A stretch of DNA of 56,170 bases from Verrucomicrobiota bacterium. Lineage in GTDB: Bacteria > Verrucomicrobiota > Verrucomicrobiia > Palsa-1439. Position 1 is the stretch's first letter. Every line of letters starts with the position of its first letter. Below, one piece after another: positions 131 to 21,489 of this stretch. Both the position numbers and the translations under genes were made by a program. The notes under the pieces are model-generated. The model did no database searches. It worked only from the letters and a program-made list of their open reading frames with translations, and had not been told where the DNA came from. The stretch spans positions 1-56,170 of the forward strand of contig VHCW01000022.1 of the NCBI GenBank assembly GCA_016871575.1, given 5' to 3'.

Positions 131-205
131 GTGGGACAGGCGTCCCGCCTGTCCAACCGTAACACAGGCGGGACGCCTGTGAAAGCCGAGGCAAGCGGGA
201 CGCTT
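131..205. repeat. Array of three small hairpins with 3-nt TCC/GGA loops
   Basis: Three stem-loops follow each other: arms 134-142/146-154 around TCC, arms 163-170/174-181 around GGA, and arms 193-197/201-205 around GGA. All share the core GCG-GGA-CGC, the first in flipped orientation. This is the geometry of REP-type or dispersed palindromic repeats. The array is read in frame into the GH127 fragment that follows, giving a low-complexity leader. No second copy was seen elsewhere in the window. Confidence 0.7.
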
Positions 206-1048
206 ACCCCACCGAAGCTCGCTGTCAACGACAAGCCCGTTGCGCTCGTGTTGAAGAAAGGTTTCGCGCAAATCAAACGCACGTGGCATCCCGGCGATAC
301 CGTGACACTGGAATTGCCGATGCCCGTGCGCCGCATCGTTGCCCACCCGGCAGTGAAGGATGACGTGGACAAGTTTGCCGTCGAGCGCGGCCCGTTGGTC
401 TATTGCGCCGAGGGCGCCGACAACGACGGCAAAGTGCTCGCCAAAGTGCCCGGCACAGACGTTCGCTTCGACGTGGAACCAGAAAAGTTTTCGGAGCACG
501 GCATCACCACCGTGAAGATGCTGCCGCAAAGCACTGGCGACGCGCTGACGCTGATCCCGTATTGCCTCTGGGCGAATCGTGGCCCGAACGAAATGTCCGT
601 CTGGTTCCGCGCCAAGCCCGCGCCGCCGGAACCGTGGGCGGTTTCATTCTGTCATCCATCCGACAGTGCCGAGGCGTGTTTCGACGGCCTGTTGCCAAAG
701 AACTCCGATGACCACAGCATTCCACGCATGACGTGGTGGAACCACAAAGGCACCGCCGAGTGGGTCGAACGTTACTTCGACAAGCCGACGAAGTTCTCCG
801 CCGCCGAAGTTTATTGGTTCGACGACTCCGGCCACGGTGGCTGTCGCGTCCCGCAAAGCTGGAAGCTTCTCTACAAATCCGGCAACGACTGGAAGCCCGT
901 CGAGACCGCCGGCAACTTCGGCGTCGCCAAGGACAAGTTCAACAAAGTTGCCTTCGCGCCCGTCACCACCACCGCCCTCCGCCTCGAAGTCCAACTTCAG
1001 ACGAAGTTTTCCGGTGGAATTTTGGAGTGGAGGATGAAAGAACAGTAG
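131..1048 (+). pseudogene. 5'-truncated GH127 (DUF1680-type) C-terminal fragment
   Basis: The readable part matches the C-terminal beta-sandwich region of GH127 beta-L-arabinofuranosidase-like proteins: a segment with KGFAQIKRTW, GDTVTLELPMPVRR and RGPLVYCAEGADN, followed by a second beta-rich region ending in WRMKEQ. The family's N-terminal (alpha/alpha)6 catalytic barrel is absent. The only start (GTG at 131) lies in a palindromic repeat, the same frame is closed by TGA at 80-82, and the preceding 130 bases do not encode the missing part. I therefore read it as a remnant created by deletion or repeat insertion. An intact gene left of the window with internal rearrangement cannot be excluded. 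Assignment to GH127 rests on motif memory only. Confidence 0.7.
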
Positions 1049-1246: not shown

Positions 1247-1666
1247 TCAACTCGGCGCTGACGATGAGGACTCCACCCGCGTTTTGACTTGGGCCAACAC
1301 GGCGGCGACCTGTTGGATTTGTTGCCGCAACAGCGGCCAGTCCGGGTCATCGAGATCGAAGCCGGGATAACGGTCGGTAAAGTAGCGTTCGGCGAGCGCG
1401 GTGCAGAGGGGACGGAGTTGCGGCAGGAGGTCGGAGTGGCGTGCCTGCAATTCGCCGGCGAGTTCCTGCAAATCGTGGGTTTTGACCAGAAACCAACCGA
1501 GCCGGAGCAGTTCCGCCTTGAGAACTTTCTCCAGGACTTCCGCCAGCTTGCTGGTGCACAGCGTGTAGGCGAGTTGTTGCTCCGCCAAGGATTGGATGCC
1601 GGCCAGTTCGCTTTCGGCAATGAACAGCCAGTCGGCCGGGTTGTTCGAATCAGTTTTCCGTGGCAA
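1247..1666 (-). CDS. HEPN-domain protein, partner of MNT nucleotidyltransferase
   Basis: A 139-residue, mostly helical protein of the HEPN type: an N-terminal helix with ADWLFIAESELAG, a central amphipathic helix with KLAEVLEKVLKAELL, then KTHDLQELA and a late DRYPGF motif. HEPN proteins paired with MNT nucleotidyltransferases form toxin-antitoxin or nucleotide-transfer modules. The R-x4-6-H ribonuclease motif of toxic HEPN RNases is not evident, so this copy may be of the non-RNase class. The start is a TTG at 1666, chosen because AAGGAG lies 6 bases upstream; it overlaps the 3' end of the MNT gene by 17 bases, indicating co-translation with MNT first. Family call is firm; activity is inferred. 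Confidence 0.8.
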   Translation of the reverse strand: MPRKTDSNNPADWLFIAESELAGIQSLAEQQLAYTLCTSKLAEVLEKVLKAELLRLGWFLVKTHDLQELAGELQARHSDLLPQLRPLCTALAERYFTDRYPGFDLDDPDWPLLRQQIQQVAAVLAQVKTRVESSSSAPS

Positions 1667-2009
1667 GGAGCACTCCTTCTTGCAGGATGGTCTGGAAAAA
1701 ATGATCGCCGCAGGCTTTCTTCTCCTCCAACCGGCGCGGTGAAATCGGAATCAACGTCAGCGATGGCCGCGGCCAGATTCCCCACAACTCATCCCGGAAA
1801 TCCCGCGCGGCCTCGCACTGCCGGTCCGCGCCGTCGGCCACGATGCACAAGTCCACGTCGCTGTCGCGTTGCGCCTCGCCGCGGGCGTGCGAGCCGAACA
1901 GATAGACGGCCCGGACGTGACGGGCGCGGTTGAACGCTTCGAGACATTGCTTCAACGCCTCACGTTGGAGTTGCAACGACGCCGGCAAGTTGTCCAACAA
2001 GAGTCTCAT
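1650..2009 (-). CDS. MNT-type nucleotidyltransferase (antitoxin-like)
   Basis: A 119-residue minimal nucleotidyltransferase. The signature YLFGSHARG followed by RDSDVDL (residues about 40-53) is the GSxxxG...DxD active-site motif of the pol-beta superfamily, with a third acidic position expected near the LTLIPIS strand. In MNT-HEPN modules the MNT protein typically AMPylates or otherwise neutralises the HEPN partner. It is the first gene of a two-gene minus-strand operon; its stop overlaps the HEPN TTG start. A GGAT sequence precedes the ATG at a normal distance. The pair is divergent from the Phd-PIN module at 2.1-2.9 kb. Confidence 0.88.
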   Translation of the reverse strand: MRLLLDNLPASLQLQREALKQCLEAFNRARHVRAVYLFGSHARGEAQRDSDVDLCIVADGADRQCEAARDFRDELWGIWPRPSLTLIPISPRRLEEKKACGDHFFQTILQEGVLLATEN

Positions 2010-2464: not shown

Positions 2465-2868
2465 ACCGCGCGGTGTTCGATACGAACGTCATTGTGGCCG
2501 GCTTCCTTTCGCCGCACGGACCACCGGGGCGGATCGTGGACTGGCTCCGCCAAGGCGCCGTGACCACCGTGCTGGATGACCGGATCGTTTACGAATACAC
2601 CGAGGTATTGGCGCGGCCGGTGTTTGGTCTGCCGCAATCTGATGTGGCCTTGGTGCTCAGCGTTATCCGGGATCATGCAGAATGGGCCGAAGCTCCGGTC
2701 GCCGTGTGTGCGACTGGCCTGCCGGATCCTGACGACGCACCGTTTCTCGAATGTGCCCGAAGCGCCGGCGTGCCGCTGGTAACCGGCAACACTCGGCATT
2801 TCCCCAAGCGTCTGTGCGCCGGTGTGGAAGTGTTGACGCCGGCTGAGTTCGTGCGGCAGTTCGAGTAA
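2461..2868 (+). CDS. PIN-domain toxin (COG1569-type, VapC-like)
   Basis: A 135-residue PIN-domain ribonuclease-like toxin. Seen: FDTNVIVAG at residues 5-13 with the first catalytic Asp, an acidic Glu around YEYTEVLARP, and a C-terminal cluster GLPDPDDAPFLECA followed by TGNTRHF, which supplies the remaining metal-binding acids. This pattern is typical of the family annotated as putative toxin-antitoxin toxin component, PIN family. The likely role is Mg-dependent cleavage of RNA, held off by the upstream Phd-like protein with which it overlaps by 4 bases. Substrate is unknown. Confidence 0.88.
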   Translation: MNRAVFDTNVIVAGFLSPHGPPGRIVDWLRQGAVTTVLDDRIVYEYTEVLARPVFGLPQSDVALVLSVIRDHAEWAEAPVAVCATGLPDPDDAPFLECARSAGVPLVTGNTRHFPKRLCAGVEVLTPAEFVRQFE

Positions 2869-2910
2869 AAAGAAATTCCCTGTCGGCATCCTAGAGCGGA
2901 GTAGAAACAA

Positions 2911-5274
2911 ATGAGACTACTAAGAAATTTAGGACTGGCATCGCTGAAGTGTCTTCGTGTCAGGGTCGTTGCGCTTGTTGCCGGTTTGCTGGTTTCAACC
3001 ACTGGTGGTCATTGCGGCGAGCTTGCCGCCGGGCTGCCGTCGCGGGATGGGATCGTTCGGGCCGCTGCCGAAAACGCCGAGCGCACTTGGCGCGGGGTCA
3101 ATCGCCAGCCGCCGACGGTCGGTTCACGCGAACTGTTCAGCGCGGCGCTCGCTTGGTGCGAGGCAAAGACACACCTCGACCGGCTCGAAAAACTCTTTGA
3201 TCTCGCCGCCCAGATGCAGGACCGCGACCCGCAGAGCCGGACGTACGGCAACTTCCGGTGGAACTGGCATCACGAGGGCGTCTGGGACCTCAACGCCGTG
3301 GATTTTTGTATGCAGATGGGTGCGTTGCTCTGGATCCATCATCAACAGACGATACCGCCCGCAGCGCGCGAGAAGCTGCGGGAGATTCTGGAGTTGGCGA
3401 TCCATGGATTGATCGGCCACCGCGTGCCGGAGACGTACACGAACATTGCGTTGATGAACGCCGGCAACCTCATTCTGCTCGGCGAGGCGATGGACAAGCC
3501 CGACGCGGCCAGCGAAGGGTATGCGCGGCTCGACCGGTTTCTGCTGGCGATGTGGGAGAGCGGCACGCACGAGTATTGCAGTCCGACCTACTACGGCGTG
3601 GACCTCGATGACCTCGTGTTGATCGAGGCGTTCGCCAGGCAGGAACGCGGCCGGCAACAGGCGCGCGTGTTGCTGGAATATTTCTGGAGGGACATCGCGC
3701 TGAACTGGTTCCCGCCCGCGCAGAAACTCGGCGGCGCGCGCAGCCGGGACTACGATTACCTGCGCGGCCTCGGTTTCCTCGACCAGCAGATGATGGCCAA
3801 CGGCTGGCTGCCGACCGATGCGAAGAATCGCGTGACCCACATTGTCAACGCCTTCACCCGCTGGCGACCGCCGGCGCGATTGAAGGAAATGAGCGAGACG
3901 CGCTTTCCCCGGCTCGTGCAGCAAATCTGGGGTTTCGAACCGGCGGAATCGCGGACGCATTACCTGTGCCGCGACGTGACGCTCAGTGTCGCCGGTGCGA
4001 ACTACCGGACGATGGACATCCCACTGAGCGCCGATTTGCCCGGACCGCGCGAGGGTGTGCGTTGTTATTTCATTCCCGACGGACGGCATGATCCCTACGG
4101 CAAAATCAGAATCCAAGAAGGCAAAGCGCATGCAAAGACGCTCCACCTTACGCCGTTCTGGGCGGCGGCCCAACGGCGCGTGGACGCGCTCGGCGTGGCG
4201 CTCTACCGCGACAAGGATGTTCCGCCGGAGACGCAGACGTTAGAGTCGCACTTCGTGATGCCGCTCGATGTGGACAGCTTCTGGATTGGCGGTCGGCGCG
4301 TGGACACCCCGAAGGACAAACCGTGGGAATTTCCACTCAACCACGGCGAGGCGCTGGTGCTGCGCAAAGGCACGGCAGCAGTCGGCGTTCGCGTTCCGTG
4401 GGCGCAGGACGATGCGCCGGTGAGCTTCGTGTTCGACGGCAACAAATTCGGCGCAGTGCGCTTGACCGTCGCGCATCAAGTCGGCTCCAGGGCCGGTGCG
4501 GCGTTCTGGGTGCGGATTGGCAGCGAGCTTCGCAATGACGCCGCGTTCGAGAAGTGGCAACGACAGTTTGCTGCTGCGCGCTCCAACGTGGAGGCCGCAG
4601 GCGAGCGGGTGCGCATCTCGGTGTCGGGCGCGGATGGCGCGGTGACGGTTGGCGCCGACGCGGCAAAATCGGCCGCGTTCGGATTGGAGCCGATGCCGCC
4701 GCGCGCGTTGCTGGCGGTGGACGGCGAGGACATCGGGCGGCGGCTGTTGCAGGATTTGGAGCCGATTCGCAGTTGGCGCGCCACAATTGCCGGGCAAACC
4801 CAGATCGCAGTGCCGAAAGGCAAAAGCGTTTACTGGGAAGCCGAGGCCGGTCGCGTGGTTCCGCCGATGACTCGGGACAAAGACGCCAAGGCGGTCGGCG
4901 GCGCGTTCGTCTGGATGCCGGCCAAGCCCGGCGAAAAGGCGGGCAGTTCAGTCGGCCACGTCGCATGGCAACTCAAGATGGCCGCGCCGGGCAAGTATTA
5001 CGTCTGGGGCCGCGTCCAGGCGCCGACACCGTCCAACGATTCGTTTTACGTCCGCCTGTTCAGCGACGAGGAAGAGATTCTCGGTCGGACCGACTGGCCG
5101 ACCGGTGTGCGCAAGGATTGGGAGTGGATTCCGCTGGCCATCGGCGGCGGGCGGGCGCCAACGGCGCTTGATTTGCCGTCAGGACTCGTCAACTTCCAAC
5201 TGCGCGTGCGCGAAGCGGGAACGAAGATGGACCGGCTATTCATCACCCCGCGCGCCGACGAACGACCGCGCTGA
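2911..5274 (+). CDS. Secreted alpha/alpha-toroid plus beta-sandwich protein, polysaccharide-lyase-like
   Basis: A 787-residue protein with an N-terminal signal-like hydrophobic stretch (VRVVALVAGLLVSTTGG, about residues 17-33). Residues about 50-330 are helix-rich with aromatic/His clusters (NFRWNWHHEGVWDLNAVDF; ESGTHEYCSPTYYGVDLDD), as in alginate-lyase or heparinase II/III-type toroids. The middle is beta-rich, and the last 150 residues (WEAEAGRVVPPM, then AAPGKYYVWGRV) look like a carbohydrate-binding jelly roll. The fold pattern suggests a uronic-acid polysaccharide lyase or related hydrolase, fitting the pectin-type genes downstream, but I do not recognise a named PL family. A GGAG sequence lies upstream of the ATG. 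Function is an inference. Confidence 0.7.
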   Translation: MRLLRNLGLASLKCLRVRVVALVAGLLVSTTGGHCGELAAGLPSRDGIVRAAAENAERTWRGVNRQPPTVGSRELFSAALAWCEAKTHLDRLEKLFDLAAQMQDRDPQSRTYGNFRWNWHHEGVWDLNAVDFCMQMGALLWIHHQQTIPPAAREKLREILELAIHGLIGHRVPETYTNIALMNAGNLILLGEAMDKPDAASEGYARLDRFLLAMWESGTHEYCSPTYYGVDLDDLVLIEAFARQERGRQQARVLLEYFWRDIALNWFPPAQKLGGARSRDYDYLRGLGFLDQQMMANGWLPTDAKNRVTHIVNAFTRWRPPARLKEMSETRFPRLVQQIWGFEPAESRTHYLCRDVTLSVAGANYRTMDIPLSADLPGPREGVRCYFIPDGRHDPYGKIRIQEGKAHAKTLHLTPFWAAAQRRVDALGVALYRDKDVPPETQTLESHFVMPLDVDSFWIGGRRVDTPKDKPWEFPLNHGEALVLRKGTAAVGVRVPWAQDDAPVSFVFDGNKFGAVRLTVAHQVGSRAGAAFWVRIGSELRNDAAFEKWQRQFAAARSNVEAAGERVRISVSGADGAVTVGADAAKSAAFGLEPMPPRALLAVDGEDIGRRLLQDLEPIRSWRATIAGQTQIAVPKGKSVYWEAEAGRVVPPMTRDKDAKAVGGAFVWMPAKPGEKAGSSVGHVAWQLKMAAPGKYYVWGRVQAPTPSNDSFYVRLFSDEEEILGRTDWPTGVRKDWEWIPLAIGGGRAPTALDLPSGLVNFQLRVREAGTKMDRLFITPRADERPR

Positions 5275-5301
5275 ACAAGAATGTGGGAGCGGCCTTCTGG
5301 C

Positions 5302-5419
5302 AAAGGGTAGTTCGTAGTGAGCCACGCAGCGAAGCGGAGTGGCGTTGTGGAGATCGTTGCGTCCAAACGATCCGCACTCCGCCCCGAAACGACACGGGGC
5401 TGCGTGCGTTACTACAAAC
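5302..5419 (+). repeat. Interspersed hairpin element, copy 1 (~118 bp)
   Basis: This stretch is closely matched by 46911-47029 in the same orientation. It contains nested inverted repeats: 5314-5330 with 5399-5415 (14 of 17 paired), 5334-5340 with 5376-5382 (exact), 5352-5358 with 5366-5372 (exact), and 5381-5386 with 5395-5400 (exact). It lies between the lyase-like gene and the glutamine amidotransferase gene. No open frame of its own and no transposase is nearby. A MITE/REP-like element or a structured RNA are both possible. Confidence 0.8.
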
Positions 5420-5514: not shown

Positions 5515-6543
5515 ATGTGTGTAATCGCCGGATATGTGGGTTCGCGGCTTGCTGCGCCGGTGCTGCTGGAGATGATCGAGCGGCAGGAGGGTCTGGCGGG
5601 CGGATTCTACGCGGGACTCGCAGCGGTGGAGCCGGGCAGCCTGCACTGGGCCAAGGTCGTTGGGTTGGTGTCTGACCTCCGCAAGAAGACGAGCGCAGAA
5701 CGATTACCGGGTTGCGTGGGCATCGCGCATTCCCGCTCCAAGTCCGGCGGCGACGCGGAATGGGCGCATCCGTTTGTCGCTTGTTTCGAGTCGGTGGCGT
5801 ACGTTGCGAACGGAAGCGCCGGCGTCTGGAAGGATCATCCGAGTCGCCAGACGATTCCGAACCGCCTTGCCCGCGAAGGCCACCGGTATCACGCCATCAG
5901 CAACCGACCCGTCGGCACGTACCCCACGCTTGACGATGGGCGCTCGGTGCACGTCAGCGATGTGATGGCGCATTTCGTGGAAGATATTTTGCAGAAGACC
6001 GGCAACCCGGAAAAAGCCATTGCGACCGCGATGATCGAAATGCCTTCCGAAGTGGTTGGGCTTTTCGTGTCGCCGCATCATCCCGAAGCCGTGTACGGCG
6101 CGCGTTGGAACATGCCGGCCTGTGTGGGTGCGAATGATGATGGCGCCTACGTTGCCAGTTCGCCGGAAGGGTTTCCGTCGTCGGTGCGCTGGTGGCGATG
6201 GATTCCGCCTTGTTCCTCTTTCACGTTGATGAAGGACAGGGTCAGCATCTCGCCGATGGGGCCGCCCTCGAAGGCGATTGTGGACGACGTGGACCGGGGA
6301 CAAGCCCGCGCGGTAATCCTTGATGCGCTCGCCAAGGGCAAACCACTTGGCGTTGGCAGCTTGCTCAAGATTGTCGAGCCGTTGTCGTCCACTCCAGCGC
6401 CCAATGTCCGGTACGACCCGGTGTATGATGTGCTGCACGCGCTGATGCGTTCCGGCCAGATTCGCCGCGCGGCGACGCGAGTGGCCGGCGCTGCGGAAGG
6501 AATTGACGGCGTGCGTTTCATGCACGAACTCACGAAGGATTGA
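5515..6543 (+). CDS. Stand-alone class II glutamine amidotransferase-like protein
   Basis: A 342-residue protein that begins MCVIAGYVG, placing Cys2 where class II (Ntn) glutamine amidotransferases such as the GlmS N-terminal half have their nucleophile. Further matches are GIAHSRSKSGG (the family's HTRWAT-type Arg loop), a following HPF, and VAYVANGSAG (Asn-Gly oxyanion site). There are no SIS sugar-isomerase domains; the C-terminal 120 residues are unassigned. It could hydrolyse glutamine for an unseen partner or be a repurposed Ntn hydrolase. The start at 5515 is chosen because CAGGAG lies 8 bases upstream and Cys becomes residue 2; longer frames run into the repeat element. It ends just before the PL11 gene. 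Confidence 0.75.
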   Translation: MCVIAGYVGSRLAAPVLLEMIERQEGLAGGFYAGLAAVEPGSLHWAKVVGLVSDLRKKTSAERLPGCVGIAHSRSKSGGDAEWAHPFVACFESVAYVANGSAGVWKDHPSRQTIPNRLAREGHRYHAISNRPVGTYPTLDDGRSVHVSDVMAHFVEDILQKTGNPEKAIATAMIEMPSEVVGLFVSPHHPEAVYGARWNMPACVGANDDGAYVASSPEGFPSSVRWWRWIPPCSSFTLMKDRVSISPMGPPSKAIVDDVDRGQARAVILDALAKGKPLGVGSLLKIVEPLSSTPAPNVRYDPVYDVLHALMRSGQIRRAATRVAGAAEGIDGVRFMHELTKD

Positions 6544-6544
6544 C

Positions 6545-9479
6545 ATGACCAATCGAATGATTTCCCTGCTGCTCTTGACGGCGGCTGTTGTGACGACGGC
6601 CGCGCACGGCCAACTCCGGTTCGAGGCGGAAGATTACAGTTCGCCGCGCGATGCGTGGTTGAAGGACAAAACCGCCCCCAACCGCTGGATGCTTTGGAGC
6701 ACCGATAAAGATGCAGACAAGAAATGGTCGGGAGGCATCGTGCTCAAAAGCCCGATGGTGATGGCCGACCGCGCCACGCCGGAGGACGGCGCGCCGCCAT
6801 TGCACACCGTCCTCACGGGCATTCCCAAGGGCGTCTATAACATCCAGATCAAATGCGGCCGCGTCTTGGCAGTCTCGCTGGACGGCAAGAATTGGTCGCG
6901 GTACACGGGCGGCTGGCTCGCTCGACGCGTCCCCATCAACAACGGAACCTTCGAACTCCGGGTGGACGACCGGTTTGCCATGGAGAAAGAGCAAGCGCGC
7001 GGCACAGCCTATTACGACTGCATTTTTCTTTACCCGTGCGCGCCCATCGTCAACGGTGTGCCGAATGGCGATTTCGAAGTCGAGGCGAACGGCCTGCCCG
7101 TCGGATGGTCGTTCGCCGCGCCCGGGAACACGACCCGGTTTTCACTCGACGCTGCCGACCGCCACGCCGGTCGTTTATCTGCGCGCATTGAGTCCACCGG
7201 CGAAACCGGCTGGACGCTCGCGTGCAGCGACCCGATTCCCGTGAAGCCCGGCGATGAACTGGCCATCTCGGCCTGGGTGAAAGGCGCCGTGCAAATGGCC
7301 GCCGCCGTGCAGGTGGAAGGCTGGCACGAGGGGAAACGGATCAAGCGAATGCTCGGACGCGCGGGCGTTGACAGCGCGTCGAAGTGGACGCAAACGAAAG
7401 GCCATTTCACGGTTCCCGAACCAGTCACCGAACTGCGCCTGTTCGTGACGGGCAGCGGGCCGGCGGATGTTCGTGTGGACGACATCGCGCTCCGACGCGA
7501 GCGAATGAGTTGGCCGACGGCTCCCAAAGTCCGCGGCTGGGCAAAACAACGCGTCGAGGAAAAACTCGACCGCGGCGTGGTGGCGGCGCGGATTCCCGAG
7601 GGCGTGTATGTCGGCTGGCGGCTGCTCAAGAGCGATCCCGCCAACGCGGGCTTCGATGTGTTTCGCCAAGTCGCCAACGGCCCGTGGATCAAACTCACCG
7701 AAGCGCCTATCACTCAAACCACGGACTTCATTGATCGCCAAGCGCCGGCGGAAGGCCAGTTGAGTTACAAGGTGGAGTCAACTGTGAGTGACGTTCCGGC
7801 TCCACTTGCCGCCGACGGGGCTTCCTATGTAGGCATCAAGCTGCGCGACCCGCAGACGCGATTCTCCAAGATCGCCATTGCCGACCTCACACGGCGATGG
7901 CCGGCACGATTACGTCATCAAACAGCCGGAGAAAAACATTGACCCCGCCGGTGTTTACTGGATGCCGTCGCCAGACACTTACAAAATCGAAGCTTACTTG
8001 AGCGACGGCACGTTCCTCTGGCAGCACGACCTCGGTTGGGCCATCGAGCGCGGCATCTGGTATTCGCCGTACATCGTTTGCGATTTGACCGGCGACGGCA
8101 AGGCGGAAGTGGCCGCGAAAATCGGCGAAGGCGACCCGCGCGGCCCCGATGGCCGCGTGAAGACCGGCCCCGAATGGTTGGTGGTGTGGGACGGCATGAC
8201 CGGCAAAGAGATCGCGCGCGTGCCGTGGCCCGACCGTTCCGGTTACGGCGAATACAGCCGCACCTCGCGCAACCAAATGGCCGTGGCGTACCTCGACGGA
8301 AAAACGCCGTGCCTGTTGGCGTTGCGCGGAACGTATTGCCGGATGAAAGTGGACGCCTACCAACTGCGCAACGGCAAACTGGAGCGCCTCTGGCGGTACG
8401 ACAATAACAACCTGCCCGGCACCTATTGGGGACAAGGCGAGCACTTCACCCGCGCGCTCGACGTTGACGGCGATGGACGCGACGAAGTCATGCTCGGCAG
8501 CGCGATGCTCGATGACAACGGCACTCCGCTCTGGACCACCGGCCTCGGACACAACGATTTTGCCTACGTCGGCGACATCAACCCGCGCCGGCCGGGCTTG
8601 GAAATCTTCTACGGAATCGAAACGCGCGCTGAGAAAAACGGCATGTGCCTCGTGGACGCCGCCACGGGCAAAATCCTCTGGGGACACGACCAGCCGACCG
8701 TTCACATTCACGGCGCCGGGATGTGCGCCGACATTGATCCGACCGTTCCCGGCTTGGAAGGTTTCGGGTTGGATTGCCTGTCGAAGAAACCCGACGTGCG
8801 CAACGGCCCGTGGCTCTGGGCGGCTGACGGCACGTTGCTCTGGTTCGATAAACCGGTGTTGCCAAAAACGTTTAGCTTCACGCCGGTCTATTGGGACGCC
8901 GATTTGCAGAAGGAGCTTTTGCTGGGCGGCAAGATTTGTGATTACGACGGCGGCGTGGTCCAGAACCTTGCAGCGGGTTCGGTTGTCATCGCCGACGTGC
9001 TCGGTGATTGGCGCGAGGAAATCATCGCGTCATTCCCCGGCGAAATCCGCATCTACACAACCACCATTCCCGCCGCCGACCGTCGCGTCTGCCTGATGCA
9101 AGACCGCATTTACCAGGCCGACGCGCGAATGAACAGCATGGGCTACTACAAACCGCCGATGACCTCGTATTGCCTCGAAGCCGAATCGCCGGGCCTGAAC
9201 CTCACGGCCATGACGAACGACGCCGGCAAACCTGTTTGCCGCGTGGTCGTCTCGGCCCCGCTTCGCAAAGGCGTTGCCGGCGTCGTGCAACTGGACGGCG
9301 GCGACGGCGTTAAGCTGTCGCCGGACCAGTTCGCGGTTGACGTGAAGCCGGGCGAACGCGCCATTCGCTTCGTTGAGATTCAGGCTGGCTCGCTCTCCGC
9401 GCCGCGACTCATCCGCGCCACGCTTACCCTGAAAGACCGTGTCCTGCGCGGCCAAGTGCTGATCGTCCGAAAGAAGTAA
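6545..9479 (+). pseudogene. Rhamnogalacturonan lyase PL11, interrupted by a +1 frameshift
   Basis: Two adjacent frames together make one PL11 (YesW/YesX-type) protein of about 977 residues. The first (6545-7942) has a signal peptide, two N-terminal carbohydrate-binding-like domains (the second starting NGDFEVEANGLPVGW) and the PL11 leader region with LDRGVVAARIPEGVYVGWRLL. The second (in frame from about 7890 to 9479) has the calcium-binding beta-propeller: GDGRHDYVIKQP, DLTGDGKAEV, DVDGDGRDEV. The break is at 7886-7895, where CTC-ACAC-GGC stands for an expected CTC-AAC-GGC, one extra base; the total length (3n+1) agrees. PL11 enzymes cleave the rhamnogalacturonan I backbone. Real inactivation and a base-calling error are equally possible. 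Confidence 0.85.
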
Positions 9480-12573: not shown

Positions 12574-13965
12574 ATGAAAACACGAACTCTCTGTTCGCTG
12601 TTGGGTATTGCCCTTGTCGTTGGTTTTGCTGCTGTTGCTGCCGATGACGCGGATCGCATCAAGCCATGGTCGAAGAACCCGCGCTACTGGCAATACAAAG
12701 GCCAGCCGGTGCTGTTGCTGGGCGGCTCGAAAGACGACAACCTCTTTCAGATCCCCGACCTGAAGGAACATCTCGACGAAATGAAGGCCGTCGGCGCCAA
12801 CTACATCCGCAACACGATGAGCGACCGCAAGGACAAAGGGTTCGAGGTTTATCCGTTCCAACAACTGCCCAACGGCAAATACGACCTCGACCAGTGGAAC
12901 GACGAATACTGGCAACGATTCGAGAACATGCTCCGCTGGACCGCCGAGCGCGACATCATCGTGCAAATCGAAGTGTGGGACCGCTTCGATTACGCAAGGG
13001 ACAACTGGCCGCCCCATCCGTACAATCCCAGGAACAACGTCAATTACACCCCCGAACAATCCGGCTTGGCCGAGTCCTATCCCGATCATCCGGGCAGCAA
13101 CAAACAGCCGTTTTTCTTCACCACGCCGAAACAACGCAACAATACCGTCCTGCTCAAGTACCAGCAGCGATTCGTCGAGAAAATGCTCTCCCACACGCTC
13201 CGTTACAACCACGTCCTCTACTGCATGGACAACGAAACTTCCGGCGAGGAAGCGTGGGGCGCCTACTGGGCGGACTTCATCAAACAACGCGCGAAACAAG
13301 CCGGCAAGAAAGTTTGCGTGACGGAAATGTGGGACACTTGGGACCTCAAGGCCGATCAACACAAACGCACGTTCGATCACCCGGAGCGTTACGATTTCTG
13401 CGATGTCTCGCAAAACAACCACAAGAAGGGACAGGAACATTGGGACAATTTCCAGTGGGTGCGCCAGCGCATCGCGGCCAAGCCGCGCCCGTTGAACACC
13501 GTCAAAACCTACGGCGCCGACACCGGGCGCTACGGCACCAATCGCGACGGTGTGGAGCGCTGGTGGCGACACGTCATCGGCGGCGCGGCCTCGGCGCGTT
13601 TTCACCGGCCCGACTCCGGCTTGGGTTTGTCCGAGCCGGCAGCAGCCGCCATCAAGGCAGCGCGTAAACTCGAATCGCTCATCAAACTCTGGGACGTTGA
13701 ACCGGCCAACCACCTGCTCACCGACCGCGCCCCCAACGAAGCCTATCTCGCGGCGCGTCCCGGCCAAGCCTATGCGCTCTATTTTCCCAACGGCGGTTCC
13801 GTTGGTCTCGACCTCAAAGACGCGACGGGCAAGTACGAATTGCGTTGGATTGACATCGCCACCGGAGAATGGGGCAAGCGCGATACCATCACCGGCGGCA
13901 AGGTCGTGACCGTGACCGCTCCCGCCAAAGGCCACTGGGCCGCCGCCGTTGTTCAGGTTCGCTGA
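12574..13965 (+). CDS. Secreted TIM-barrel glycosidase-like protein
   Basis: A 463-residue protein with a signal peptide ([19 protein letters not shown]). The body reads as a clan GH-A-like barrel: [23 protein letters not shown] near the start, [33 protein letters not shown] (Asn-Glu, candidate acid/base) and [11 protein letters not shown] (candidate second Glu). The C-terminal 90 residues ([29 protein letters not shown]) match the small sandwich also seen at the end of the DUF5060 protein. No family number is assigned. Start at the second ATG (12574), which gives a clean signal peptide; the earlier ATG (12544) overlaps the M14 gene. Its stop overlaps the next start by one base. Confidence 0.72.
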
Positions 13966-15899
13966 TGATGAAAATGTGTCTTCTGACAATCTTGTTGCTG
14001 TTTGTTAGCCTTGCCGAAGCCGGCATGGAGGAGGCGCGTGACTACGCCCTCACCGGCGGCGGTTCTGGGTGCATCGTTCATCGCGGCAAACAAGTCCTCG
14101 CGTGGGGCGACCAGAAACAACTCTACGATTTGAAATCCACAACCAAATCCTTCGGCGTCACTGCGCTCGGCCTCGCCCTCATGGACGGCAAAGTCAAACT
14201 CGACGACCCGGCGAAAAAGTTCTTCCCGTCTTTCGGCACACCGCCGGAAGAGAACGCGCGGACCGGCTGGCTCGACAAAATCACGTTGCGGATGTTGGCG
14301 ACGCAGACCGCCGGCTTCGAGAAGCTTGGCGGGTTCGGCAAGCTATTGTTCGAGCCGGGCACGAAGTGGCATTACAGCGATGGCGGCCCGAATTGGCTCG
14401 CGGACTGTTTGACGCTCGTGTATCGGCGCGATTTGGCGGAGTTGATGTTCGAGCGCGTGTTCACCCCGCTCGGCATTGGCCGTGACGATCTGCGTTGGCG
14501 CAACAATTCTTATCGCCCGCACAAACTCGAGAGCATCCCGCGACGCGAGTTCGGCTCCGGCGTCAGCGCCAACGTCGCAGCGATGGCGAAGTTCGGCCTC
14601 CTCTATTTGCGCGAAGGCCGTTGGAACGACCGTCAGATCATTCCGTCGGATTTCGTCCGACTCGTCCGGGCGCCGGCGAAAGAACTCGCGGGTTTGCCAA
14701 CGCACGACAACATCCACGGCAATGCCTCTGCGCACTACAATCTGCTCTGGTGGAACAATGGCGACGGCGCGTTGCCCGGCGTGCCGCGCGACGCCTACTG
14801 GACGTGGGGACTTTACGACAGCCTCATCGTCGTGATTCCCAGCCTCGACATCGTTGTCGCGCGCGCCGGCAAATCTTGGCGCCGCAAGAAAGACGCCCGC
14901 CACTACGATGCGCTCAAGCCGTTCCTTGAACCAATCTGCGCTGGTGCTGGCAGGATTTGTTGGGCGCCGAAGGAAACGATCATTTGCAAAGCGAAGGGGA
15001 GCGACAACTGGCCGATGACGTGGGCCGACGACGACGCGCTGCACACGGCTTACGGCGACGGCAACGGCTTCGAGCCGTTCCTGCCGGAAAAACTCAGCAT
15101 GGGATTTGCGCGCGTCACGGGCCATCCGCCGGACATTACCGGCGTCAACATCCGCTCACCGACCGGCGAGACGCGCGGACACGGTCCCAAAGGCAAAAAA
15201 GCCAGCGGCATCCTTTGTGTGGATGGTGTGCTCTATTTGTTGGCACGCAACGCCGGCAACGCGCAGTTGGCCTGGTCGGAAGACAAAGCGAAAACGTGGA
15301 CGTGGGCGGATTGGAAATTCACGACCAGCTTCGGTTGTCCGACATTTCTGAATTTCGGGAAGAACTACGCCGGCGCGCGCGACGAGTTTGTTTACATTTA
15401 CTCGCACGACAACGACAGCGCCTACAAACCCGCCGACCGGATGGTGTTGGCGCGCGTGCCAAAGAACCGGCTACGCGAGCGTGACGCCTACGAACTTTTT
15501 GTGAAGCTCGACGCGGGCGGTCAACCGGTTTGGACGAAGGACATCGCGCAGCGCGGCGCGGTCTTCACGCATCCCGGTCGGTGTTATCGGTCTGGCATCA
15601 CCTACAACGCGCCGTTGCGCCGCTACCTCTGGGTGCAGATTCTGCCCGAAAGCCGTCATCCACAGGGAATGCGTTTCCAAGGCGGCTTCGGCGTCTATGA
15701 CGCGCCCGAACCGTGGGGACCGTGGACACGGGTCTATTTCACCGAAGACTGGGATGTCGGCCCCGGCGAAACCGCCAGTTTCCCAACCAAATGGATGAGC
15801 AGCGACGGACAAACGCTATGGCTGGTCTTTTCCGGCGACGATTCGTTCTCGGTGCGTAAGGCAACACTGACCGTGAACTCTGCGAATTTGCCCAAATGA
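13965..15899 (+). CDS. Beta-lactamase-like serine hydrolase fused to DUF4185 (BLA-DUF4185)
   Basis: A 644-residue exported protein. After a signal peptide (LLTILLLFVSLAEA), residues about 25-330 are a class C beta-lactamase/esterase-like domain: S58-T-T-K61 is the SxxK nucleophile motif, HYSDGG gives the Tyr motif, and a WTWGLYDS region stands near the third motif. Residues about 345-644 match DUF4185, a beta-propeller-like domain (DNWPMTWADDDALHTAYGDG; FGCPTFLNFGKNYAGARD; MVLARVPKNR). The substrate is unknown; an esterase acting on acylated glycans or peptidoglycan fits the setting. The next gene has the same two domains in opposite order. TGATG overlap with the upstream stop. Confidence 0.85.
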   Translation: MMKMCLLTILLLFVSLAEAGMEEARDYALTGGGSGCIVHRGKQVLAWGDQKQLYDLKSTTKSFGVTALGLALMDGKVKLDDPAKKFFPSFGTPPEENARTGWLDKITLRMLATQTAGFEKLGGFGKLLFEPGTKWHYSDGGPNWLADCLTLVYRRDLAELMFERVFTPLGIGRDDLRWRNNSYRPHKLESIPRREFGSGVSANVAAMAKFGLLYLREGRWNDRQIIPSDFVRLVRAPAKELAGLPTHDNIHGNASAHYNLLWWNNGDGALPGVPRDAYWTWGLYDSLIVVIPSLDIVVARAGKSWRRKKDARHYDALKPFLEPICAGAGRICWAPKETIICKAKGSDNWPMTWADDDALHTAYGDGNGFEPFLPEKLSMGFARVTGHPPDITGVNIRSPTGETRGHGPKGKKASGILCVDGVLYLLARNAGNAQLAWSEDKAKTWTWADWKFTTSFGCPTFLNFGKNYAGARDEFVYIYSHDNDSAYKPADRMVLARVPKNRLRERDAYELFVKLDAGGQPVWTKDIAQRGAVFTHPGRCYRSGITYNAPLRRYLWVQILPESRHPQGMRFQGGFGVYDAPEPWGPWTRVYFTEDWDVGPGETASFPTKWMSSDGQTLWLVFSGDDSFSVRKATLTVNSANLPK

Positions 15900-18073
15900 G
15901 AATGTTTTTTCATATGTTGCTCGCGCTTGCGTCGCCGTATCTGCCCAGTCCGGTGATTGAACGCGTGGAGTTCGATTTCTCCACGCACAAACGCTTCGCG
16001 CCGGGCAGCGACAATTGGCCGACGACGTGGGCCGACGACGGCCACCTCTACGCTGCGTGGGGCGATGGCGGCGGTTTCGGTGGCGACAACAAGAAAGGTC
16101 GCGTGACACTCGGTGTCGCGCGCATTGAAGGCGACGCTGCCAGTTATACCGGCCACAATGTCTGGGGCGGCTTCAACGCGGCGCATCCCGCACAGTTTGA
16201 CGGCAAGAGCTACGGGATGCTCAGCGTCGGCGGTGTGCTTTACATGTGGGTATCGCACCAGCCAAACCCTCACCTTGACAAGTGCCAGTTGGCGTTCTCG
16301 AAAGACCACGGCGCAACGTGGCAGTTGGCCGACTGGTGTTTCCGCTACACCGATCAACTCACGGTGCCGACGTTCTTGAACTTTGGATGCGACTACGCCG
16401 GCGCGCGCGACGGCTACGTCTATAGCTACTTCATCCATCCGGCGTGGGGACCGGGCAAGTCCGCGACCGGTAACTACGGCTTCGATGTCCATAAACCAGG
16501 CCGCGTTTGTCTCTCGCGCGTGCCAAAGGAGGCCATTCTCGACCGCAACCGCCACGAGTTTTTTGCCGGGCTGGCAAAGAACGGCGCGCCGAAATGGTCT
16601 GCGAAGTTGTCCGACAAACAACCGGTCTTTCAGGATGCGAACGGCGTCGGCTGGAATCTCAGCGTCAGTTTCAATCCCGGTCTGCGCCGGTATCTGCTCG
16701 TCACCGAGCACGGCGAAACCCACGCCGGCAAATTCGGCCTGTTCGACGCGCCGGAGCCGTGGGGACCGTGGACAACCGTCGCCTACGAAGATCGCTGGGG
16801 CGAAGGCCACGTCGAGGTCTCAACGTTTTACTGGAACTTCCCGACGAAGTGGCTCAGCGCCGATGGCGCGCGTTTTACGCTCGTGTTCACCGGCAAGAAC
16901 TCGAACGATTCATGGAACACGGTTGACGGGCGATTCATTCGTCGCGCGTCAGATTATTTTCCGCCGCCCGATTCCGAGGGCGGGTGGCGCACCCGTCCCA
17001 ATGACGCGCGGTTCGATGCCGCGTTCGAGTTTGCGAAGCGCACGACCAAGAACGGCGGCCTGCTCGTGCTGCACCGAGGTTGGCTCGTTTATGAACGCTA
17101 CTTTGGCCGCGCCCACCACGAGGCCAATCCGGTCAACGCCTCCATTGCCAAATCCTTCACGAGCATCGCCATCGGGATTTTGCTGCACGAGCGGCCCGAA
17201 CTGTTTCCCGACGGGCTGGACCAGCAGGTGTTCACGCCGCGTTATTTTCCCGTCGAGATGTTTCCGTTGAGCGACCCGCGCAAGGCGGACATCAAGCTCG
17301 GCCAATTGCTCGCGATGACCGCCGGCATCCGCGGCAATAACCCCGGCTCAATGGTGAATCATCAGCCTGTGACGCTCACCCCCGCCGGTCCCGACGGCCA
17401 AGTTGCCTCGACTGACGCGATGGCTTTCGGCCAAATGGATGGCAAGCTCAACGCGCGCACGCTATGGTGCGAGCCGGGCGGTGGTTACTCCTACGCGACA
17501 GCTTCGATTCATCTTGGTTCGGTGATGCTGCGCCACGTCACGGGGCGCGAGTTGAAGGATTACGTGGACGAGAAAATCGCGCGCCCGCTCGGTTGGGGGC
17601 GGTGGGAATGGCGCGACACCGGCAACCCGCACACGCCCGGCGGCGGCAACATCGCGCCGCGCCCCACGGACTTGCTGCGCTTCGGTTATCTGCTCCTCCG
17701 TGAAGGCCGCTGGCGCGACCGCCAGATTGTGCCGGCCGATTACGTCCGGCATTGCGCGAGACCCTCACCCTACAATCCGCACTACGATTACAGCCTGCAG
17801 TTCGATGTCAACGGCAACGGTCACTGGTCCGACGTGCCGCGCGACGCGTTCTGGAAATCCGGCTCCGGCGGCCACGTGCTCTACATCGTGCCGTCGCTCG
17901 ACCTCGTGGTCTATAAGATGGGCGGACGCGACAGCCAATACGCGCGGAGCCGTCCCTCGCCCACACCCGATTCGTCGCGCGAGAACTGGAAGGAAGACCG
18001 CGCGCTCGACTACGAAACCGCCAAACATGAAACGCTGAAACTCATCATCACCGCGCTAGATAATTCAAAATGA
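15896..18073 (+). CDS. DUF4185 fused to beta-lactamase-like serine hydrolase (DUF4185-BLA)
   Basis: A 725-residue protein, the mirror image of the preceding gene. Residues about 20-345 are DUF4185 (DNWPTTWADDGHLYAAWGDG; FLNFGCDYAGARDGYVY; CLSRVPKEAI). Residues about 365-725 are the beta-lactamase-like domain, with S416-I-A-K419 as SxxK, YSYATAS for the Tyr motif and SGSGGHV near the third motif. The N-terminus (MRMFFHMLLALASP) is a short, weakly basic signal, less convincing than its neighbour's. It overlaps both flanking genes by 4 bases (ATGA), implying coupled translation. The two genes probably arose by fusion of a repeated domain array or by circular shuffling; both keep the nucleophile motif. 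Confidence 0.85.
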   Translation: MRMFFHMLLALASPYLPSPVIERVEFDFSTHKRFAPGSDNWPTTWADDGHLYAAWGDGGGFGGDNKKGRVTLGVARIEGDAASYTGHNVWGGFNAAHPAQFDGKSYGMLSVGGVLYMWVSHQPNPHLDKCQLAFSKDHGATWQLADWCFRYTDQLTVPTFLNFGCDYAGARDGYVYSYFIHPAWGPGKSATGNYGFDVHKPGRVCLSRVPKEAILDRNRHEFFAGLAKNGAPKWSAKLSDKQPVFQDANGVGWNLSVSFNPGLRRYLLVTEHGETHAGKFGLFDAPEPWGPWTTVAYEDRWGEGHVEVSTFYWNFPTKWLSADGARFTLVFTGKNSNDSWNTVDGRFIRRASDYFPPPDSEGGWRTRPNDARFDAAFEFAKRTTKNGGLLVLHRGWLVYERYFGRAHHEANPVNASIAKSFTSIAIGILLHERPELFPDGLDQQVFTPRYFPVEMFPLSDPRKADIKLGQLLAMTAGIRGNNPGSMVNHQPVTLTPAGPDGQVASTDAMAFGQMDGKLNARTLWCEPGGGYSYATASIHLGSVMLRHVTGRELKDYVDEKIARPLGWGRWEWRDTGNPHTPGGGNIAPRPTDLLRFGYLLLREGRWRDRQIVPADYVRHCARPSPYNPHYDYSLQFDVNGNGHWSDVPRDAFWKSGSGGHVLYIVPSLDLVVYKMGGRDSQYARSRPSPTPDSSRENWKEDRALDYETAKHETLKLIITALDNSK

Positions 18074-19212: not shown

Positions 19213-21489
19213 ATGAAACTGTTTTTCGCAAGCATCCTTCTCATCATGACCAGCACGCACGGCGAGGCGAGCTTGTTGGAGCAAACGAAGACGCTTTGTC
19301 GCGGTTACGTCGAAGGTTTCATGAGTCCGGCGACCGATCTCGCCTACGGCAAACGTCTCAACGGCCCGCGTGGCATTGCCCTGCTCGAAAGCCCAGCGGA
19401 GATTGCGCAGGGGCGCGTGTTGGGCGAACAACGTCCATACGGTTACGGCTCCGGTATCGAGGACATGGCGTACCAGACCGGGATGTTGCTGTTCGCGCTT
19501 TGCGACGCGGGGGAGGCGACGGGCGACACGTATTTCGCCGAGCTGGCCCGGCGCGCGTTCAAGGGACTCAAGCTGATGAGCACGATCAGTCCCGTGGAAG
19601 GTTTCGTGCCGCGCGGGCCGCATCCTGCCGACGGCAAGACCTACTACAAGGATTCTTCGCTCGACCAACACAGCCTCTACGTGTGCGGCCTGTGGCGCTA
19701 CTATCGGAGCCGGCTCGCGTCACCGGCGGAGAAGGAAGTCATTCGCGACATCGTCGGCAAGGTAACTCGTCGTTTGGAGAATGCGCAGTGGATCATCAAG
19801 GTCGAGGATGGCAGCGCGCCGTCAAAAGCCGGCGGCAGCATGCTCCGATGGGAGCCAACGTCGGCCACGCTGCTGTTGATGATGCTCGCGGCAGCGCACG
19901 ATGTGACCGGGGACGCGCACTGGAAAGATGAATATGACCGTTTCAGTCGCGAGCAAGACGGCCGGCGATGGGCGCTCATCGCGAAGGAGATTGATCGGAA
20001 CCGGGAGCATCGCTACACGCTGTTCATGAACCAGCACGCGTTGCGCGCGGAGACATTGCGCCGCATCGAAACGTCCGCCGAGCACAAAGCAGTTTTGCGC
20101 CGGCACCTCGAAGCGACTGCGGAGGACATGCTTTCGGCACCGTATTTCCGCGCGTGGCGCAGCCTTGATTGGCTCGGCGAAGAATCGTGGGAGGACGCAT
20201 CGAAGAAGGAAGTCGCCAACGCTTACCTGCAACCGCTCGGTGTCACGCTGGACTCGCCGGTGACTGTGATGGACTTGTGGCGGAAGTTCGACCTGAACCG
20301 TCTCTCGCCGCCAGCGTTGCGCGGCCGGCGAAACCGTTACGAACCGATCGCACTGACAACGCCTGCGATGGTCTGGCAGATTGCGTTACTCTCGCAGAAA
20401 CCGGAACTCGTGCGCCAAGTCCAAGCGGCCGTGCGCGAGATGCTGGAGCGGGTGGACTTCAACAAGATTGATCTCGGCTGGGCCAACAACTACGCCGTTC
20501 TCGCCGCGCTCTGGAACGTGGCGCAATCAGCGAACACCGGCATCAGCGTCTCCGTCACCCGGTTCCTTCTGAACGGGAAACCGTTCGATTACACCGGCGT
20601 CAGTTTCTTCAACGCCATTTACAATCCGACTTTCAACAAGAGTTCCGCGGAACGCACGCGCTGGCTGGAGAAATTCCGCCGCTACGGTATCAACGTGCTC
20701 CGCGTCTGGTGTCAGTGAGACAACAAACGCGGGTTCGTTGACGCCGGCCCGGACAGCACGATGTATCTTCCGGACGGACGACTCCGCGAAGCGCCGCTGG
20801 CGACGTTGAAAGCCATCCTCGCCGATGCCGACCGGCTTGGCATGGTGGTTGAACTGTGTTTTTTCTCGCAAGAAAGTTTTCGCGAAAACATCCGACTCGA
20901 CCGCGATCAATCCATGACAGCAGTGACCGCGTTGACTCGCGCGCTCCGGCCGCATCGCAACCTGACGTTCCAGATTTGGAATGAGCACCACGACGACAAC
21001 GTCCTTCCGCTCGTGCGCGCCATCAAGGCGCTCGACCCGCAACGGCTCGTGACCAGTTCGCCGGGATTCGCCGGGGTGTTGGGGCCGGACGACCTGAACG
21101 AAGCGCTCGACTATCCCACACCGCACACCAGCCGCCAGAACAAAGGCCGTCCGTGGGAACTGGCCCCGCGCGAGATCGCTTCGTTGCTGGAGAAGTTTCA
21201 CAAGCCCGTTGTGGACGACGAGCCGGCGCGTTGCGGCACGAGCAAGTTCGGCGGGCCGAAGGAACCAACTTCCCCGGAAGATCACATCCGGCAGATCACT
21301 GCTGTCCGCCGCATCGGCGGCTACATCACGTATCATCACGACATGTTCCAGACCGGTTACGGCAGCCCGGCGGTGCCGCCGAGCGGGATTCCCGATCCCG
21401 AGTTCAGCCCCTATCATCGCGCCGTGTTTGAGTTTATTGCCAAACACAAATGCGATGCAGACAAATTGAGACCACGGGAGATTCGATAA
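19213..21489 (+). pseudogene. GH105/GH88-like barrel fused to GH5-like domain, split by in-frame TGA
   Basis: One 759-codon frame is interrupted only by TGA at 20716-20718. Residues about 1-450 are an (alpha/alpha)6-barrel of the unsaturated glycuronyl hydrolase kind (YGSGIEDMAYQTGMLLFAL; KDSSLDQHSLYVCGLWRYY). From about residue 455 a GH5-like barrel begins (LLNGKPFDYTGVSFFNAIYN; RRYGINVLRVWCQ), then the TGA, then DNKRGFVDAGPDST, FQIWNEHHDDN (acid/base Glu) and KPVVDDEPARCG. Related sequences as I recall them have Trp at the TGA position (VWCQWD), one base from TGG. The downstream half could also restart at ATG 20761. A nonsense mutation, a sequence error or readthrough are the options. Confidence 0.78.

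Follow-up and report, generated by a model that had tools for sequence, protein, structure and literature searches.

A net one-base frame break within a PL11 rhamnogalacturonan lyase gene of a Verrucomicrobiota bacterium: recent gene decay or assembly error

Introduction

In pectin-degrading PL11 rhamnogalacturonan lyases such as Bacillus subtilis YesW (PDB 2z8r), an RGI_lyase beta-sheet domain is followed by an RGL11_C propeller. The gene considered here lies at 6545-9479 of a 56,170-nucleotide stretch (hereafter, the window) that constitutes contig C22 of a 5.19 Mb genome, 95.4% complete and divided among 257 contigs, figures from which we conclude that it is probably a metagenome assembly. 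This gene presents the same two domains in the same order, but differs from YesW-type lyases (i) in that its frame is broken at the first DxNxDG-type loop, and (ii) in having both a long N-terminal part that includes a CBM_4_9 domain and a C-terminal extension. Relatives such as L012, L017 and L045 likewise match most of the long N-terminal part.

Three published settings offer points of comparison. Disrupted beta-propellers have been reported elsewhere (PMC9218822) and likewise involve one frameshift in a gene whose relatives are intact at that place; however, they are highly repetitive forms, whereas the propeller in the window is that of an ordinary PL11 enzyme. A second study sorts frame transitions by the conservation of their position and direction, and infers recoding where the shift is adjoined by specific motifs (PMC3711429); the break in the window, in contrast, is at a non-conserved position and adjoins no motif that we recognized. 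Finally, many apparent bacterial pseudogenes are assembly errors according to PMC11017572, and the case at hand resembles these spurious pseudogenes in that a frame is broken by one base in draft-quality sequence, although metagenome-assembled genomes are outside that paper's assessment. Among the literature matches listed, no title reports the PL11 break of the window.

Results

The frame opened by the ATG at 6545 reads ...SKIAIADLTRRWPARLRHQTAGEKH and continues through ...KIAIADL to a stop codon at 7940-7942, and the frame closing at 9479 reads ...HGDGRHDYVIKQPEKNIDP. Between the two, a net single extra base in CTCACACGGC (7886-7895, plus strand) breaks the PL11 frame, and from about 7890 the homology carries on in the +1 frame, as GDGRHDYVIKQPEKNIDP, up to 9479. 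That one extra base splits the gene at this place had been proposed from the sequence alone, and the reading frames, codon usage and tblastn all bear it out; the total length of 6545-9479, 2935 bases, is 3n+1, as had been stated. Somewhere from about 7860 to about 7920, the codon-usage log-odds pass from favoring the first frame to favoring the second, and on a frame-switching Viterbi path the change falls at about 7886-7890. In tblastn comparisons with 50 loci, many matches to the upstream fragment stop at residue 448-449, and residue 5-6 is where most matches to the downstream fragment start; together these limits put the switch at about 7886-7892. This position corresponds to the ADL-(N/D)-GDG loop, the first DxNxDG-type (calcium-type) loop of PL11, in agreement with the calcium loop originally named.

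The upstream fragment (6545-7942, plus strand) has a signal-peptide-like start, recognized by eye, and an N-terminal domain with no family assignment, after which profile searches place CBM_4_9 (PF02018) and, at residues 338-417, the RGI_lyase beta-sheet domain (PF18370; E 1.9e-15); the fragment ends with 16-17 out-of-frame residues ahead of its stop. The downstream fragment (7878-9479, plus strand), defined by profile searches and tblastn, consists of the PL11 catalytic propeller RGL11_C (PF21348; E 2.3e-82, profile positions 60-482 of 490) and a C-terminal extension, and its residues 6-434 align with residues 124-569 of YesW (E 4.2e-74). While an NCBIfam profile search assigned neither fragment to a family, the RGI_lyase, RGL11_C and YesW matches uphold the PL11 assignment made in the sequence-only reading. 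Judged by predicted domain content, 6545-9479 is a PL11 rhamnogalacturonan lyase gene, but one whose two domains do not lie in one open frame.

In the propeller frame, the downstream fragment first offers an ATG at 7962-7964 (plus strand), 20 bases past the upstream stop, which is a weak candidate for re-initiation. It is the point in favor of both pieces being functional, frame one giving a binding protein and re-initiation at this ATG a propeller, an arrangement that we nevertheless consider highly unlikely: such a propeller would be missing about 24 homologous residues, with the first calcium-type loop, as well as a signal peptide, no clear Shine-Dalgarno sequence was seen by eye, and no homologue examined is arranged in this way.

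Fifty loci were compared: the record of the window itself, 46 related loci retrieved by scanning genome contigs, and three additional matches in the genome of the window. Of the 49 non-window loci, 47 reach the junction, the count excluding L013 and L049, which fall short; for 30 codons upstream, none of the 47 has a stop in the propeller frame. In all but one of these (46 of 47), the upstream fragment is matched in the propeller frame; the exception, L004, only weakly related at 26% identity, does not match the upstream fragment and has threonine at the junction. Elsewhere the junction residue is asparagine (34 loci) or aspartic acid (12 loci). Open frames at all of these loci, together with same-frame upstream matches at nearly all, show that the two fragments are not simply open reading frames abutting by chance. 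Two of the loci, L002 and L003, are PL11 paralogues within the same genome (assigned by similarity, 55-57% identity), and both are unbroken at the junction.

The sequence-only reading had singled out homologues sharing the two-gene split as the observation to look for; a search found the split at none of the 47 loci, so the reading stands. Since every one of these loci crosses the junction in a single frame, and none has a frame transition at the same position, both a conserved two-gene arrangement and a conserved programmed frameshift are ruled out. Absence of the lesion from homologues, one mark of a pseudogene, therefore holds at 47 of 47 loci.

Several of the loci have irregularities of their own. 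In the draft records of Phocaeicola sartorii JCM 17136 (L046) and Caecibacteroides pullorum AN421 (L050), the PL11 frame breaks at about 5120, some 40 residues past the junction, and changes at about 5202-5411, downstream of the junction, respectively; despite these breaks further on, the junction itself is in one frame in both. Two other loci, L016 (about 2584-3567) and L020 (about 2599-3567), have a second stretch resembling residues 1-317 of the upstream fragment, in another frame, before the PL11 gene. This stretch is about 1.4 kb ahead of the junction, which it does not touch, and a same-frame match is also present at both loci. A similar extra stretch, in the same frame, was found at L015.

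No propeller match was detected in any of 10 other genomes of the family, which makes the PL11 gene accessory in this group. Likewise, no PL11 match was found in a congener; 11 contigs sampled from it measure 2.4-38 kb. When plasmids were searched with the upstream fragment, five records matched, none of them across 80% of the fragment.

Folding against shuffles and comparison with homologues identified a hairpin-forming inverted repeat at 7875-7900 (plus strand), with a stem of 9-10 bp, counting G-T pairs, and an 8-nt loop; the frame break sits at the edge between the loop and the 3' side of the stem. With G-T pairs counted, the stem at the break is 10 bp in the window versus 3-8 bp in the 47 homologues. 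For the surrounding 101 bases, the advantage in folding over shuffled sequences is only moderate (z -1.88), and 9 of 200 shuffles fold equally well. As such a hairpin can favor replication slippage and sequencing error alike, it does not decide whether the extra base is real. A stem longer than in any of the homologues is nonetheless one of the points in favor of a consensus or assembly error, whereby the cell would carry an intact gene and the additional base would be an artefact, perhaps arising through the hairpin or through low coverage.

The hairpin at the site, and the coding appearance of both halves by codon usage, could also be taken to suggest that programmed +1 (or -2) ribosomal frameshifting links the two frames and yields two products. 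We regard this as extremely improbable; the sequence-only reading called it unlikely, and the absence of the split from homologues, the two paralogues of the same genome included, lends weight to that judgment. Moreover, inspection of the break site by eye revealed no stop codon, slippery run or known +1 motif. The pairing of a slippery motif with a stimulatory element that characterizes programmed frameshifting is accordingly not seen here, and the stem overlaps the site rather than being downstream of it. CTC is the commonest leucine codon in the codon-usage count, and ACA, while uncommon among threonine codons (632 of 5852), is not extreme.

To gauge the preservation of the propeller, we aligned it with 44 homologues and took as near-invariant the columns at least 95% conserved. 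Of 107 such columns the window propeller keeps 106, and single homologues keep 90-100% of them. This test used 44 of the 50 loci (L001, L004, L013, L046, L049 and L050 were left out), two of which, L031 and L039, were cut at a stop within the matched stretch. Preservation to this degree indicates that the break is recent, or else absent from the cell altogether; an assembly error fits it equally as well as a recent mutation.

A second gene of the window also appears to be damaged. Translation and homologue comparison indicate that the domain of a gene at 19213-21489 (plus strand), named glycoside-hydrolase-like by eye, extends beyond an in-frame TGA at 20716-20718, 13 kb from the PL11 break. 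The gene matched no family in Pfam or NCBIfam, and was itself matched in 7 of the 387 genomes searched, including that of the window. Five of the six other homologous loci, all distant at 25-33% identity, reach the place of the TGA; none of the five has a stop there, and in two a tryptophan is aligned with it.

At the start of the contig, a profile search identified the 3' remnant of a GH127 gene (131-1048, plus strand), comprising positions 58-95 of the 95-position middle domain, a match of 23.9 bits that is just below the cut-off of 24.2, and the C domain. The complementary 5' part, consisting of the catalytic domain and positions 2-57 of the same 95-position middle domain, is found at the end of another contig, C6 (L070:84-1610, minus strand). 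Both broken ends run into multi-copy sequence. On the window side, a repeat search of the genome showed that positions 1-131 are the end of a multi-copy element, which is present in full or in part at 21 further places, no fewer than 18 of which lie at contig ends; on the C6 side, where the shared sequence starts TAGCCCATTTGTTTCACCG, the element end recurs at 25 further places, no fewer than 22 of which lie at contig ends. Insertion into the GH127 gene of a multi-copy element, known from these two ends, is the best account of the split, the link between C6 and C22 being one that we infer, and the split could in part be an assembly artefact at the repeat.

A palindromic repeat pair, GACAGGCGTCCCGCCTGTC, is located at 135-181. 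Allowing no more than two mismatches, it occurs at 14 places in the genome, both window copies included, versus one for a reversed control.

A codon-usage scan for similar lesions, trained on the same sequence, window included, was run in a loose and a strict version. The loose version flagged 31 places in 456 kb, five of them in the window; inspection was confined to places flagged by the strict rule, which leaves outside it three loose window places, at junctions near 1650, 13950 and 34240. The strict version flagged only five places in the same 456 kb, two of which are the frame break and the TGA of the window, and six more in a further 800 kb. In about 1.2 Mb of the genome there are thus nine strict candidates outside the window, versus both lesions flagged within it. 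Examined by eye from their translations, eight of the nine are ordinary neighboring genes and one is low-complexity sequence, so that none is convincing; the gene identities at these places are presumed ones, read from translations rather than from a profile search. One of the nine (C9), a same-frame stop, was taken as the boundary between two different genes, the second of which has neither an ATG nor a GTG start. The scan constitutes only moderate evidence: it is of unmeasured sensitivity, the rules it applied were drawn up with both lesions already known, and the window had been picked for the first of them, which reduces the excess in the window to one lesion beyond the given one.

Additional features of the window include a neighboring gene pair at 13959-18073 with the same two domains in reversed order, Beta-lactamase-DUF4185 and DUF4185-Beta-lactamase, the DUF4185 match in the Beta-lactamase-first gene being below the curated cut-off. 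Between carbohydrate-active genes, 5515-6543 encodes a protein that stands alone and is similar to the N-terminal portion of GlmS (64 bits, far short of the family cut-off of 381), with no Pfam match. Judging from translations, we presume that 1247-2009 (minus strand) and 2461-2868 represent a possible HEPN/MNT pair and a PIN-domain gene.

Discussion

Breakage of a gene from a known family is nothing out of the ordinary, and this PL11 gene is such a case or else an error. We see a consensus or assembly error as a substantial prospect, if somewhat short of an even one: the assembly is in 257 contigs, the break is within a strong hairpin and the propeller is well kept, three points that also tell against decay, as do the missing start codon at candidate C9 and the chance of a repeat artefact in the GH127 split, and draft assemblies often carry spurious frameshifts (PMC11017572). 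Conversely, an error of this kind does not account readily for the lack of any convincing like lesion in the 1.2 Mb of the same assembly that was scanned, or for two other genes of the cluster that seem to be damaged by different means.

Taken together, the frame break, the TGA of the second gene, the GH127 split and the scan tilt the balance toward real, recent damage. We therefore lean, with restrained confidence, toward the extra base being real and marking the recent inactivation of a PL11 gene in a decaying polysaccharide-degradation cluster. The observed part of this account is that the frame break is absent from 47 homologous loci, that the two paralogues are unbroken, that the second gene contains a TGA and that the GH127 remnant lies beside multi-copy sequence.

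Under recent inactivation, an ordinary secreted PL11 rhamnogalacturonan lyase gene would have been hit by a one-base insertion at its first calcium-type loop, the extra base would be present in the cells, and the GH127 gene would have been cut by a multi-copy element. The two PL11 paralogues in the same genome imply redundancy and could cover the function of the broken gene; this redundancy may have relaxed selection on it. No active enzyme would be expected from the broken gene. If the break is real, frame one would yield at most a secreted fragment, provided it is stable, with the predicted binding domains and without the propeller; this product of binding domains alone is what we infer for the broken gene, and weak re-initiation of a truncated propeller at ATG 7962 could also take place.

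It is conceivable, but very improbable, that the break is not only real but kept, with the upstream piece secreted as a catalytically empty pectin-binding protein while the paralogues do the cutting and the cluster sheds enzymes through mobile-element insertion, frameshift and nonsense mutation.

In annotating this genome, the PL11 gene should be counted as active only once the reads have been checked. Were the lesions real, the locus would represent a small snapshot of the loss of a polysaccharide-degradation cluster by three routes: mobile-element insertion, frameshift and nonsense.
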